Source: an uncultured Pelagibacteraceae bacterium
Lineage (GTDB): Bacteria > Pseudomonadota > Alphaproteobacteria > Pelagibacterales > Pelagibacteraceae
Direction: 5' to 3'
DNA: 64,000 nucleotides
NCBI GenBank assembly: GCA_902620525.1
Contig: CACNIK010000002.1
Coordinates: 124,001-188,000 of the forward strand
In this document: in pieces, positions 38,160 through 41,881 of the stretch
Position numbering within the stretch: position 1 is the stretch's first letter
Layout of the letters: the number at the start of each line of letters is the position of its first letter
Notes under the pieces: generated by a model
What the model was told of the DNA's origin: nothing
Databases searched by the model: none
The model's input: only the letters and a program-made list of their open reading frames with translations
Made by a program: the position numbers and the translations under genes

Positions 38160-38537
38160 ATGAGTAATTTTGAAAAAGTGGGAAAATTTATGAAAACATT
38201 TGGACAAGAAGTCAAAAATAAAGCTAAATTTCCTGAAGAAAAAATTGTTAAGCTTAGATACGATTTAATCGCTGAAGAACTAGAGGAATTTAAAGTTGCT
38301 TTAAAAGATAAAAACATAAAAGAGGTGGCAGATGCTTTGACTGACATACTTTATGTAACTTATGGCGCAGGTCATGCCTTTGGAATTAATTTAGACAAAT
38401 GTTTTGATGAAGTGCAAAATTCTAACATGAGTAAACTTGGAGAAGACGGCAAACCTATTTACAATGAATTCGGTAAAGTAATGAAAGGACCCAATTATTT
38501 CAAACCAAATTTAGAAAAACTGATAAATGAAAGATAA
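38160..38537 (+). CDS. MazG-like/PRA-PH family nucleotide pyrophosphohydrolase
   Basis: RYDLIAEELEEFKVALKDKNIKEVADALTDILYVTYGAGHAFGI matches the EExxE...ExxD metal-binding pattern. Confidence 0.8.
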   Translation: MSNFEKVGKFMKTFGQEVKNKAKFPEEKIVKLRYDLIAEELEEFKVALKDKNIKEVADALTDILYVTYGAGHAFGINLDKCFDEVQNSNMSKLGEDGKPIYNEFGKVMKGPNYFKPNLEKLINER

Positions 38538-38607
38538 AATATTCTGGATTATTACTGGTATAGCTTTGGGACTATTACTTTATTTAGGAGATAAATATAT
38601 TTTTTAA
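38527..38607 (+). CDS. candidate 26 aa single-TM microprotein
   Basis: ATG at 38527: MKDKIFWIITGIALGLLLYLGDKYIF*; overlaps the end of the preceding gene in another frame. Confidence 0.35.
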   Translation: MKDKIFWIITGIALGLLLYLGDKYIF

Positions 38608-38723
38608 AAACCCATGTTCGACCAATTGTCATTATCCTTAAATCTTTTTAGCTCTTCTTTGGAAGTAGGTCTAAAAAGATAATAGACTAGAAATAATCCA
38701 ACAATTATAAAAATAATTTCCAT
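38604..38723 (-). CDS. candidate 39 aa single-TM microprotein
   Basis: MEIIFIIVGLFLVYYLFRPTSKEELKRFKDNDNWSNMGF*; not in the ORF track because of its length. Confidence 0.4.
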   Translation of the reverse strand: MEIIFIIVGLFLVYYLFRPTSKEELKRFKDNDNWSNMGF

Positions 38724-38732
38724 TTCGTTTAT

Positions 38733-38996
38733 TTATTTATATTTGATTTTATACACTAAAATAAAAAAACTTAAAACAAGAGTTATTGCATTTGCCAATA
38801 TAATTGGAACTGATGAAATAATTACTCCATATATTAACCAACAAGAAGTTCCAATCGTAAAAATTAAAAACATGTATAGAGAAATATCTTTTGTGCTTCT
38901 AGATTTATAAACTTTAATTGCTTGAGGCAAAAAAGAAATAGTGGTGCAAAATGCTGCAAAAAAACCAATATATTTTATAATAAAATTTAGTACCAT
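38733..38996 (-). CDS. SemiSWEET/PQ-loop (MtN3-like) sugar transporter
   Basis: 87 aa, three TM helices: GFFAAFCTTISFLPQAIKVYKSRSTKDISLYMFLIFTIGTSCWLIYGVIISSVPIILANAITLVLSFFILVYKIKY. Confidence 0.88.
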   Translation of the reverse strand: MVLNFIIKYIGFFAAFCTTISFLPQAIKVYKSRSTKDISLYMFLIFTIGTSCWLIYGVIISSVPIILANAITLVLSFFILVYKIKYK

Positions 38997-39001
38997 AATT
39001 T

Positions 39002-39026
39002 GCAGGGGCGTTCTGTTGCCAGGTGC
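39002..39026 (-). repeat. displaced copy of tmRNA coding-piece 3' segment (att-like repeat R1)
   Basis: GCAGGGGCGTTCTGTTGCCAGGTGC, identical over 25 nt to 40626-40650 in the tmRNA gene. Confidence 0.9.
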
Positions 39027-39242
39027 TTAATATTTCTTTTTTTTACCTTTAGTTAATATTTGAGAAATTTTTTCCCAATTAGCAATTAAACTTCCGATAG
39101 AAAAAATTGCTAAGCCGTGATGTGAAGCAAAATCATCAAATTCATGGAGTCCAAGTTCTGCACCTATTTCTATCAGAGCAGAAAATAATAATATTCCATA
39201 AGTGAACAATGCTAATTTAGGATTTTTTTTAAAATCAATCAT
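39027..39242 (-). CDS. hypothetical 71 aa membrane protein
   Basis: ORF bounded by R1 and R2; MIDFKKNPKLALFTYGILLFSALIEIGAELGLHEFDDFASHHGLAIFSIGSLIANWEKISQILTKGKKKKY. Confidence 0.6.
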   Translation of the reverse strand: MIDFKKNPKLALFTYGILLFSALIEIGAELGLHEFDDFASHHGLAIFSIGSLIANWEKISQILTKGKKKKY

Positions 39243-39276
39243 GCTTGATTATTTATCATGCTTAATTGTAATGCAA

Positions 39277-39298
39277 GGGGCGTTCTGTTGCCAGGTGC
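39277..39298 (-). repeat. displaced copy of tmRNA coding-piece 3' segment (att-like repeat R2)
   Basis: GGGGCGTTCTGTTGCCAGGTGC, identical over 22 nt (23 with the next C) to the tmRNA copy at 40629-40651. Confidence 0.9.
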
Positions 39299-39422
39299 CG
39301 TGAACCTTTTAACGTTATACAACAATTCTAGACCATAAAAAACGGCTATTTCTTTGCTGGGTGAGTCCGTATTGTGCCCGCCAGTGAGTCCGGATATAGT
39401 GTGTATATTATAAAGGATACTT

Positions 39423-39839
39423 ATGTTTGGATTATTTGAAAATAAACAAGGGAAAGCTTTGGTAGCTGAAACGTTAAGAACTATAGAACATGCTGATCTG
39501 TTAAGTACTAAAGATAAAAACAAAGTAGCTAAAAATGTATTTACAAAAATTATAAAAGCAATAAATGAGATTGACGGGGTACCTCATGGTCCAAAACTCG
39601 ATAAAATTATGCAAAGACAAATTCAAGATGCAACCAAACAAAGACAAAAACAAATTACTGCAGATGAAGAAAGAAATCCAAAATGGATTGAAACTGCTTT
39701 ATTTGAAAGTTTCTTGTTAATGAATTGTGGAAAATTTGGAGAAAAAATATCCAAACAAAGTATAATCGTTGGCGGTTGGTGCAGAGAAAATATGACACAA
39801 GCTGAGCTTAATAAATTTGAAAAAAAACTACCAAAATAA
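39423..39839 (+). CDS. hypothetical protein (138 aa)
   Basis: Open ORF in the R2-R3 segment; no family recognised. Confidence 0.65.
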   Translation: MFGLFENKQGKALVAETLRTIEHADLLSTKDKNKVAKNVFTKIIKAINEIDGVPHGPKLDKIMQRQIQDATKQRQKQITADEERNPKWIETALFESFLLMNCGKFGEKISKQSIIVGGWCRENMTQAELNKFEKKLPK

Positions 39840-39842
39840 ATA

Positions 39843-40130
39843 GTGAAAAAAAGAAAGAGCCAATATTCAACGCGAGATTATACCAAAAAGGTTTATTGGT
39901 CTGGAGATAAAAAAGATTTAAGAAAATCATTCCCTAAATGGACGATGATTGCTTGGGCGTTAATTGATCTAACACTTGGAGTAGGTTTAATTTGGCTTGC
40001 AATTAGTTGGGCTGAAAGCACTTGGGCTTATTATCTATTATTTATTGGCGGACTTCTATCTTTTAGAATGTGTTACGTTCATTTAAGTTATCTATGGGGT
40101 GGAAAAATCTGGGGACCAAGCAATGGATGA
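39843..40130 (+). CDS. hypothetical membrane protein (95 aa, two TM)
   Basis: GTG start; hydrophobic segments WALIDLTLGVGLIWLAISWA and YYLLFIGGLLSFRMCYV. Confidence 0.55.
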   Translation: MKKRKSQYSTRDYTKKVYWSGDKKDLRKSFPKWTMIAWALIDLTLGVGLIWLAISWAESTWAYYLLFIGGLLSFRMCYVHLSYLWGGKIWGPSNG

Positions 40131-40383
40131 TGATAAAATGATTTGGCCTCCTCCAATACCAAGAGTCTATAGGGATCACCGAAAATTTATTTATCAACTA
40201 ACTGTCTCTAAAACACTCACACACTCAGACAAAGACAAAGAAGGCAAGAAACATTGGTGCGTTGTACAATATAGAAATATTTCTCCACCTCAACCAATGA
40301 ATTCCTGGAACTTCGAAACTAAAGAAGAAGCGGAGGATTTTATGAAAAAAAATAATATGGTTTCTTTAGAAAATCAAAATTAA
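40123..40383 (+). CDS. hypothetical protein (86 aa)
   Basis: MDDDKMIWPPPIPRVYRDHRKFIYQL...; start at 40123 overlaps end of previous ORF; track start 40099 is an alternative. Confidence 0.55.
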   Translation: MDDDKMIWPPPIPRVYRDHRKFIYQLTVSKTLTHSDKDKEGKKHWCVVQYRNISPPQPMNSWNFETKEEAEDFMKKNNMVSLENQN

Positions 40384-40388
40384 AAATC

Positions 40389-40532
40389 ATGGATATACTA
40401 TTAGCAATTTTTTTATTAATTATATTAGTTGTTCTAGTGCAATATGAATTTTATTTTTTATCAGCAATTGTTGGTTTAGTTTTTGTTGCAGTCCTTTTTT
40501 TTGGGTGGACTATTTATGATCATTATAAATAA
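40389..40532 (+). CDS. candidate 47 aa two-TM microprotein
   Basis: MDILLAIFLLIILVVLVQYEFYFLSAIVGLVFVAVLFFGWTIYDHYK*; read directly, not in ORF track. Confidence 0.5.
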   Translation: MDILLAIFLLIILVVLVQYEFYFLSAIVGLVFVAVLFFGWTIYDHYK

Positions 40533-40617
40533 TTCCCCCGCCAACGCTATTTGTCTTTTCTCACTGAGTCCTATGTGAGTCCAAGATAAAAAAAGTTGTG
40601 AATTAATAAGTGTTAAC

Positions 40618-40880
40618 GCCAATACGCAGGGGCGTTCTGTTGCCAGGTGCCCCAAACCCCGTTCACTTAATTAACAAGTTAATTAAGCAGCAAGTGCAAA
40701 TTTATTATTTGCATTTATAATTAGCCCGTTACGTCGGAACTATCTCGAACGAAAGAAAAACTTTTAGACACCCGTCGAGCCTAATTCACCCCCTCAAGTT
40801 GTAAATGGTGGAGGTGGTGGGTACTGCCCCCACGTCCGCAATGTTTATTACGAGATTCGTTTATCGTCATAGTTGGAAAA
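40618..40880 (-). ncRNA. ssrA: two-piece (circularly permuted) alphaproteobacterial tmRNA
   Basis: Minus strand: acceptor piece ending GCGGACGTGGGGGCAGTACCCACCACCTCCACCA (mature 3' end at 40806), 12 nt intervening, then coding piece starting GGGGGTGAATTAGGCTCGACGGG (5' at 40793) with tag GCA AAT AAT AAA TTT GCA CTT GCT GCT TAA = ANNKFALAA* (40683-40712), then GGGGTTTGGGGCACCTGGCAACAGAACGCCCCTGC. Outer ends approximate. Confidence 0.93.
40626..40650 (-). repeat. tmRNA-resident copy of the att-like repeat (R3)
   Basis: GCAGGGGCGTTCTGTTGCCAGGTGC within the tmRNA coding piece; parent of R1 and R2. Confidence 0.9.
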
Positions 40881-40933
40881 CCAACATTATTAATATAAAA
40901 CTCTTTTTTAGAGATTCAATAACTTTATTCAAA

Positions 40934-41881
40934 ATGAAACTAACAAAAGAACAAAAACAAGAAATTGCTGACCAACAATCTCAAAAACATGAGACTAAAA
41001 GAGTAACTTCACCAGAATTAGAAAATATTTTGTACGAAGCTTTACCTGTCCTAGACCATGGCTTTGTCAGAGTAGTAGATTACATGGGTGATGATACTTC
41101 TATTGTACAATCAGCAAGAGTTTCATATGGCAAAGGAACTAAAAAAGTTTCAACAGACGAAGGCTTAATAAAATATTTAATGAGACATTGGCATTCAACT
41201 CCATTTGAAATGTGTGAAATTAAATATCACGTTAAACTTCCCATCTTTATTGCAAGACAATGGATAAGACACAGAACTGCTAACGTAAATGAGTATTCAG
41301 CAAGATATTCTATTTTAGATAAAGAATTTTATATACCTGCAAAAGAACAATTATCTGCTCAATCTATTTCAAATAGACAGGGTAGAGGAGACTTAATTAC
41401 AGGTGAGCAAGCAGATGAAGTGTTAAAAATTTTAAAAGATGATGCGACAAGAACTTACAACAACTATGAAAAAATGCTTAACGAAAGATTTGACGGAACT
41501 ACAATTGATGAGGGCAAAGCGGGTTTGGCAAGAGAACTTGCAAGAATGAACTTAACTTTAAATTCATATACTCAATGGTATTGGAAAACAGATTTATTAA
41601 ACTTATTAAACTTTTTATTTCTTAGAGCTGATAGTCATGCTCAATATGAAATAAGAGTTTATGCAGAAACTATGCTTGAAACTGTTAAAAAATGGGTGCC
41701 AATAACTCATTCAGCTTTTTTGGATTATAGAGTTGGAGCAGTACATGTTTCTGCTAAAGGGAAAAAAGTTATTCAAAAAATGGCTAAAGGTGAAAAAATT
41801 ACTTATGAAGACTCTGGTCTTTCCAAAAGAGAATGGAATGAACTTATGAGTTCTTTTGATTTTAAAGAAAAGATAGTTTAA
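40934..41881 (+). CDS. thyX: FAD-dependent thymidylate synthase
   Basis: ThyX motif [19 protein letters not shown] (RHRxxSxNexSxR-type) and family N-terminus at [12 protein letters not shown] (40934); track start 40805 runs into the tmRNA. Confidence 0.95.

Follow-up and report, generated by a model that had tools for sequence, protein, structure and literature searches.

The tmRNA 3' end as a probable docking site for integron-like cassette arrays in SAR11 bacteria

Judged from sequence comparison, the 3' end of the tmRNA gene (ssrA) in SAR11 bacteria is a docking site for small interchangeable cassettes, which form integron-like arrays. The locus described here lies in a window of 64,000 nucleotides (the whole stretch of DNA that was analysed) from an uncultured Pelagibacteraceae bacterium. 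It is probably an integron-like array of non-autonomous cassettes at the ssrA 3' end, integrated in trans by the integrase of rare elements. The comparisons reveal the site and the array, pairs of empty and filled sites, exchange between species, polarity, shared arms, and an integrase at the tmRNA locus. No earlier description of tmRNA cassettes in SAR11 was found in the open-access literature searched.

The tmRNA gene and its insertions in the window

The ssrA gene (40625-40923, minus strand) encodes a permuted (two-piece) tmRNA of the alphaproteobacterial type. ARAGORN predicted the tmRNA at 40592-40901 (minus strand), and Rfam gave an RF01849 match at 40625-40923 (minus strand, E=3e-60). 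Both predictions make the repeat core the 3' end of the tmRNA coding piece, as the initial annotation had proposed. The repeats which it described, all in one orientation, were confirmed by exact-position search. A 25-mer is exact (25/25) at the distal displaced att copy (39002-39026) and at the att copy nearest the tmRNA (40626-40650); the latter is the end of the coding piece, and its left half would derive from the last cassette inserted. A third copy (39274-39298), which divides the two cassettes of the window, has two mismatches, both among the first three bases, and is 22/22 identical at 39277-39298. All three copies are on the plus strand, and the distances between them are about 0.27 and 1.35 kb. 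The 25-mer had 0 matches across 100 shuffles. With up to 2 mismatches allowed, the 22-mer has no copy beyond these three in the whole 1.09-Mb assembly, so the 25-mer is not a repeat dispersed genome-wide and unrelated to ssrA.

Cassette 1 (39299-40628, plus strand, 1,330 bp) consists of a 5' arm, four ORFs of 138, 95, 85, and 47 aa pointing toward the tmRNA, and a 3' arm. The 5' arm carries three iterons (39362-39391, plus strand; TGAGTCC / TGTGCCC / TGAGTCC) spaced 11 and 12 bp, and the 3' arm carries two (40565-40582, plus strand; TGAGTCC twice) spaced 11 bp. Each end of cassette 1 is about 80-98% identical to the ends of dozens of other cassettes, and its internal genes are each shared singly with other cassettes. 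Cassette 2 (39027-39276, minus strand, 250 bp) is nearly filled by a 71-aa ORF (39027-39242, minus strand), and no iterons or arms were recognised in it. No confident family was found for the window's ORFs in the array, and neither cassette has its own integrase gene. The spacings, the tiny ORFs, and the lack of an integrase inside the segments are all as first annotated.

The conserved left neighbour is a PRA-PH/MazG-like nucleotide pyrophosphohydrolase gene (38160-38537, plus strand); the conserved right neighbour is thyX (40934-41881, plus strand), recognised from sequence. The original left flank of the empty site (38541-38606, plus strand) matches two relatives, L076 and L080, in which it abuts the tmRNA core. 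Since the alignment to these empty sites ends the original flank at 38606, the segment 38607-39001 is interpreted as a third, older insertion with a decayed core. It contains a PQ-loop/SemiSWEET gene (38733-38996, minus strand), and no outer core was recognisable.

Cassette arrays across the Pelagibacterales

Within the genus, 75 of 101 genomes contain the core, frequently as 2-8 copies that share one orientation. Displaced cores (one to eight) were found at 80 of 106 Pelagibacterales tmRNA loci. From this set of loci, 172 core-to-core cassettes were delimited, with a median length of 840 bp. No integrase was found in the 172 cassettes by tblastn, and no PF00589 integrase was found inside the arrays. 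The relatives are mostly incomplete single-cell or metagenome assemblies. At loci with assigned flanks, the variable segment sits between the pyrophosphohydrolase gene and tmRNA-thyX. At the empty sites L076 and L080, the flank ending in gataaatatatttttta runs straight into the tmRNA core; at the filled sites L067 and L051, the flank gataaatatatttttta meets a displaced core, and the tmRNA lies 4.3 or 1.4 kb beyond. The window locus has the features of a tmRNA-integrated island: its far boundary is marked by a displaced duplicate of the gene's end, and relatives have an empty site. An independent version of the system, with the core GTGGGAGACTTCTGTTGCCCGGTG, exists in a second family of the order, where five empty sites (L164, L166, L168, L169, and L171) and three occupied sites (L165, L167, and L172) were identified. 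The small island array first annotated at this locus is real, and its scope is wider, namely a genus- to order-wide cassette system. The arrangement is not identical in all relatives, among which many different occupants and exact empty sites were found.

Cores and arrays were also observed away from the tmRNA, at L145, L146, L147, L155, L159, L161, L162, and L163; those of L147 and L161 abut the apparent 3' end of a protein gene. At L062 (18630-18721 and the neighbouring cores), a same-core array stops at a tRNA-Thr gene: the final bases of the gene, at its 3' end, supply the right half of the last core. This appears to be a secondary attachment site.

The cassettes differ from their host genomes in the degree of conservation. 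The window's 250-bp cassette was found at 98.2-99.6% identity in L068, L072, L079, L084, and L093, at different array positions; the fumC genes of L068 and L072 are 79.5% and 77.0% identical to that of the window. Between L188 and L199, which share 81.7% identity in fumC, a 1.33-kb cassette is 99.2% identical. Cassettes are 99-100% identical between genomes whose fumC is 77-82% identical. Distant species share intact core-to-core units at 94-100% identity, which suggests that many cassettes move as units. Lone cassettes turn up at different array positions beside unrelated neighbours, and identity ends at the cores. Among the relatives, L187 is the nearest that was found; its flanks are 90-95% identical to those of the window, and its array is different. 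Copies of the 250-bp cassette (L079:16000-16528, L084:14001-14529, and L093) were also observed about 170 bp upstream of tRNA-Leu(TAA) or one unit further.

The arrays are polarised. The mean number of core mismatches grows with distance from the tmRNA, from 0.5 at the first displaced copy to 2.0 at the fifth and beyond, and this gradient was reached by 0 of 20,000 within-locus permutations, a figure that is not an exact probability because related cassettes are not independent. The decay with distance suggests that arrays grow at the tmRNA end, by successive rather than nested insertion. The two insertions of the initial annotation, which had left both orders open, should accordingly be read as successive, and their number is three with the older one at 38607-39001.

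Arms, integrase, and alternative explanations

Of 125 5' ends, 54 carry iterons, which are short repeats 11 or 12 bp apart, and so do 60 of 125 3' ends; internal control segments gave expected counts of 1.8 and 1.5, respectively. Arms with such spacing have the layout of the arm-type sites of lambda-like integrases. The iteron sequences differ among cassettes (TGAGTCC, TGTGATC, TACGTGT, TTCGTGT, and others). Matches between the two ends of one cassette numbered 67, compared with a permuted mean of 25 and a maximum of 40 in 3,000 permutations; here too, the relatedness of cassettes means that the figure is not an exact probability. Besides the 250-bp cassette of the window, some other cassettes have no recognisable arms, and iteron binding does not account for these.

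These observations bear on whether a dedicated integrase is needed at all. RecA might swap cassettes by homologous recombination, using the 22-25 bp cores together with the flanking pyrophosphohydrolase and tmRNA/thyX genes. The conserved flanking genes could anchor such exchange, and cores of this length could permit rare RecA events. However, homologous recombination does not predict matched iterons at both ends or an integrase family at the same site, and single cassettes at varied array positions, with unrelated neighbours and identity stopping at the cores, also argue against it. We consider this explanation unlikely.

Full-size elements that use the tmRNA site are rare and 8-10 kb long, and combine a divergent tyrosine integrase with a cassette-like arm layout. 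An element of about 7.6 kb adjoining the tmRNA in G048, found via a resolvase search, has genes for a serine resolvase and a divergent tyrosine recombinase of 409 aa. The 409-aa integrase gene at L221 (980-2209) is associated with the candidate arm iterons GGTACATAGT. At a threshold of E <= 0.01, 11 of the 397 genomes searched in the order have a relative of the integrase, and three of these matches are weak. The tmRNA is within 10 kb of the integrase at 8 of the 11 loci (L221, L234, L235, L236, L239, L240, L241, and L243), although L234 and L243 may be near-duplicates. At L237 and L245, the contig ends cut the locus short, and the relative at L238 (about 28% identity) is near groEL instead. 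In an alignment of six integrases, R235, K269, R345, and Y377 are invariant; the usual histidine positions are substituted, and the Pfam scores are under the curated cut-off. The structure model has a pLDDT of 83, and its best PDB folds are Cre, Tn1549 Int, and XerH (E ~1e-4, modest TM-scores). The catalytic R, K, R, and Y and the matching predicted fold place the putative helper protein among the tyrosine recombinases.

The elements L221, L234, and L235 have three iterons on the side of the tmRNA and two on the distal side. A 3' arm with three copies of AACTTCGTGTA is common to the decayed integrase element L241 and the integrase-less restriction cassettes of L038 and L039. More AACTTCGTGTA triples lie beside the core in G308, G322, G365, and G507, none of which is among the integrase matches. 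Mobilisation in trans, as suggested in the initial annotation, is supported by the integrase family on rare full-size elements at the tmRNA site and by the identical arms on some integrase-less cassettes. No integrase for the TGAGTCC iteron type of the window was found in the 397 genomes of the order, where the absence of a helper from a genome is weak evidence because the assemblies are incomplete. Comparison of the L221 junctions narrowed the crossover to about GCGTTCTGT (~9 bp). Strand exchange is confined to this short part of the 25-mer rather than spanning its whole length.

In the proposed mechanism, a circular cassette would recombine at the tmRNA hairpin. The core copy of the incoming cassette would restore the tmRNA end, and the displaced copy would mark the far end of the cassette. 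Every new insertion would land beside the tmRNA, with growth at this end and decay of the older cores. The recombination would most likely be catalysed in trans by the divergent heterobivalent tyrosine integrase that the rare elements of 8-10 kb using this site encode, whose N-terminal domain might bind the 11/12-bp-spaced arm iterons. Cassettes would also be transferred from cell to cell. Several observations count against this reading: no excision junctions or circles were seen, few genomes have a helper integrase, none was found for the TGAGTCC iterons of the window, some cassettes are armless, one integrase relative is near groEL, and some cores are at sites other than the tmRNA.

Some of the integrase genes at the tmRNA site are decayed (L236, L240, and L241), and the segment 38607-39001 of the window is without its core. 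These features would fit deletion remnants of full-size islands that are no longer mobile, but the intact core-to-core units at 94-100% identity in distant species make this explanation very unlikely. Least probable of all is insertion by the chromosomal solitary Xer-like recombinase of the Pelagibacteraceae (304-317 aa, beside ogt), which occurs in almost every near-complete genome of the family, mostly as the sole PF00589 protein: its gene is not linked to the tmRNA site, no N-terminal arm domain that would explain the iterons is seen in its sequence, and it was set aside because the second family has ssrA cassettes yet carries XerC/XerD-type recombinases instead. As a separate observation, this recombinase (as at L122:1456-2409) is conserved as one gene beside ogt per Pelagibacteraceae genome, the other family having two of XerC/D type, and it is possibly a solitary-Xer replacement.

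Known systems, phage links, and cargo

The closest precedent found is the ssrA islands of Dehalococcoides, which are likewise tandem, delimited by short direct repeats of the gene's end, and in some cases without an integration module (PMC3146451). Many of those islands carry an integration module with a serine recombinase (CcrB-like) (PMC3146451), whereas the SAR11 enzyme is of the tyrosine type, and the SAR11 units have a median length of 0.84 kb and bear matching iteron arms. Chromosomal integrons share with the SAR11 arrays the small units, the co-oriented recombination sites, one fixed growing end, and, as proposed for SAR11, an integrase acting in trans. The polarised growth at one end was found in SAR11, but no IntI-type integrase lies beside the array; the site is the tmRNA 3' end instead of attC, the conserved primary sequence of the core is that of the tmRNA, and many cassettes are armed at both ends. 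In the SAR11 hypervariable regions, too, gene content varies at a fixed position; Wilhelm et al. (PMC2217521) reported no attC sites at their four regions, and the tmRNA does not seem to feature there, unlike in the arrays described here.

Phage satellites and hitchhikers of the tycheposon/PICMI type (PMC10803314, PMC11389934) are small and need a helper, as the SAR11 cassettes would. By analogy, the cassettes may be satellite-like. The full-size elements L235 and L234 encode a T4-like gp45 sliding clamp and a T4-like clamp loader, respectively, which slightly strengthens this analogy. When some of the element genes were scanned with PHROGs and Pfam, no packaging or capsid gene of the kind that phage satellites may carry was recognised, and only the recombinase, the clamp, and the clamp loader were matched. 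T4-like phage contigs (L124-L131) have their own permuted tmRNA with the exact 22-bp core, and related phages have been reported to carry tmRNA genes of their own (PMC9004378). The cassettes and helper elements might travel inside T4-like pelagimyophages, docking in the phage tmRNA gene with the same core, although we regard this as improbable. Among the viral contigs, core matches were restricted to T4-like phage tmRNA genes, with a single core each and no PF00589 match; scans for arms and integrase gave no match, and no occupied (cassette-bearing) phage tmRNA site was seen. The INPHARED phages had no match to the 1.35-kb cassette and none to the integrase. If phage docking were true, the system would amount to a counterpart of integrons that evolved independently and is carried by a virulent phage bearing the attachment site.

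SAR11 bacteria are the commonest bacteria of the ocean and are noted for their streamlined genomes. To our knowledge, little is understood of how they acquire genes across species. Near-identical exchangeable cassettes at one fixed docking site, including restriction-modification systems, offer a concrete and testable route for SAR11 gene flow and phage defence, and the system would extend the integron principle to a tmRNA-targeting tyrosine integrase. Large cassettes contain a type I restriction-modification system in L045 and a type III system in L039; methyltransferases were found in a cassette of L038, and a type IV restriction enzyme in one of L172. The array of L062 carries many paralogues of a secreted protein (MKKLLAIIILSLCF...DIRDFQIEGMSIGDSLL) as cargo, and this family has 19 members in the arrays clustered.
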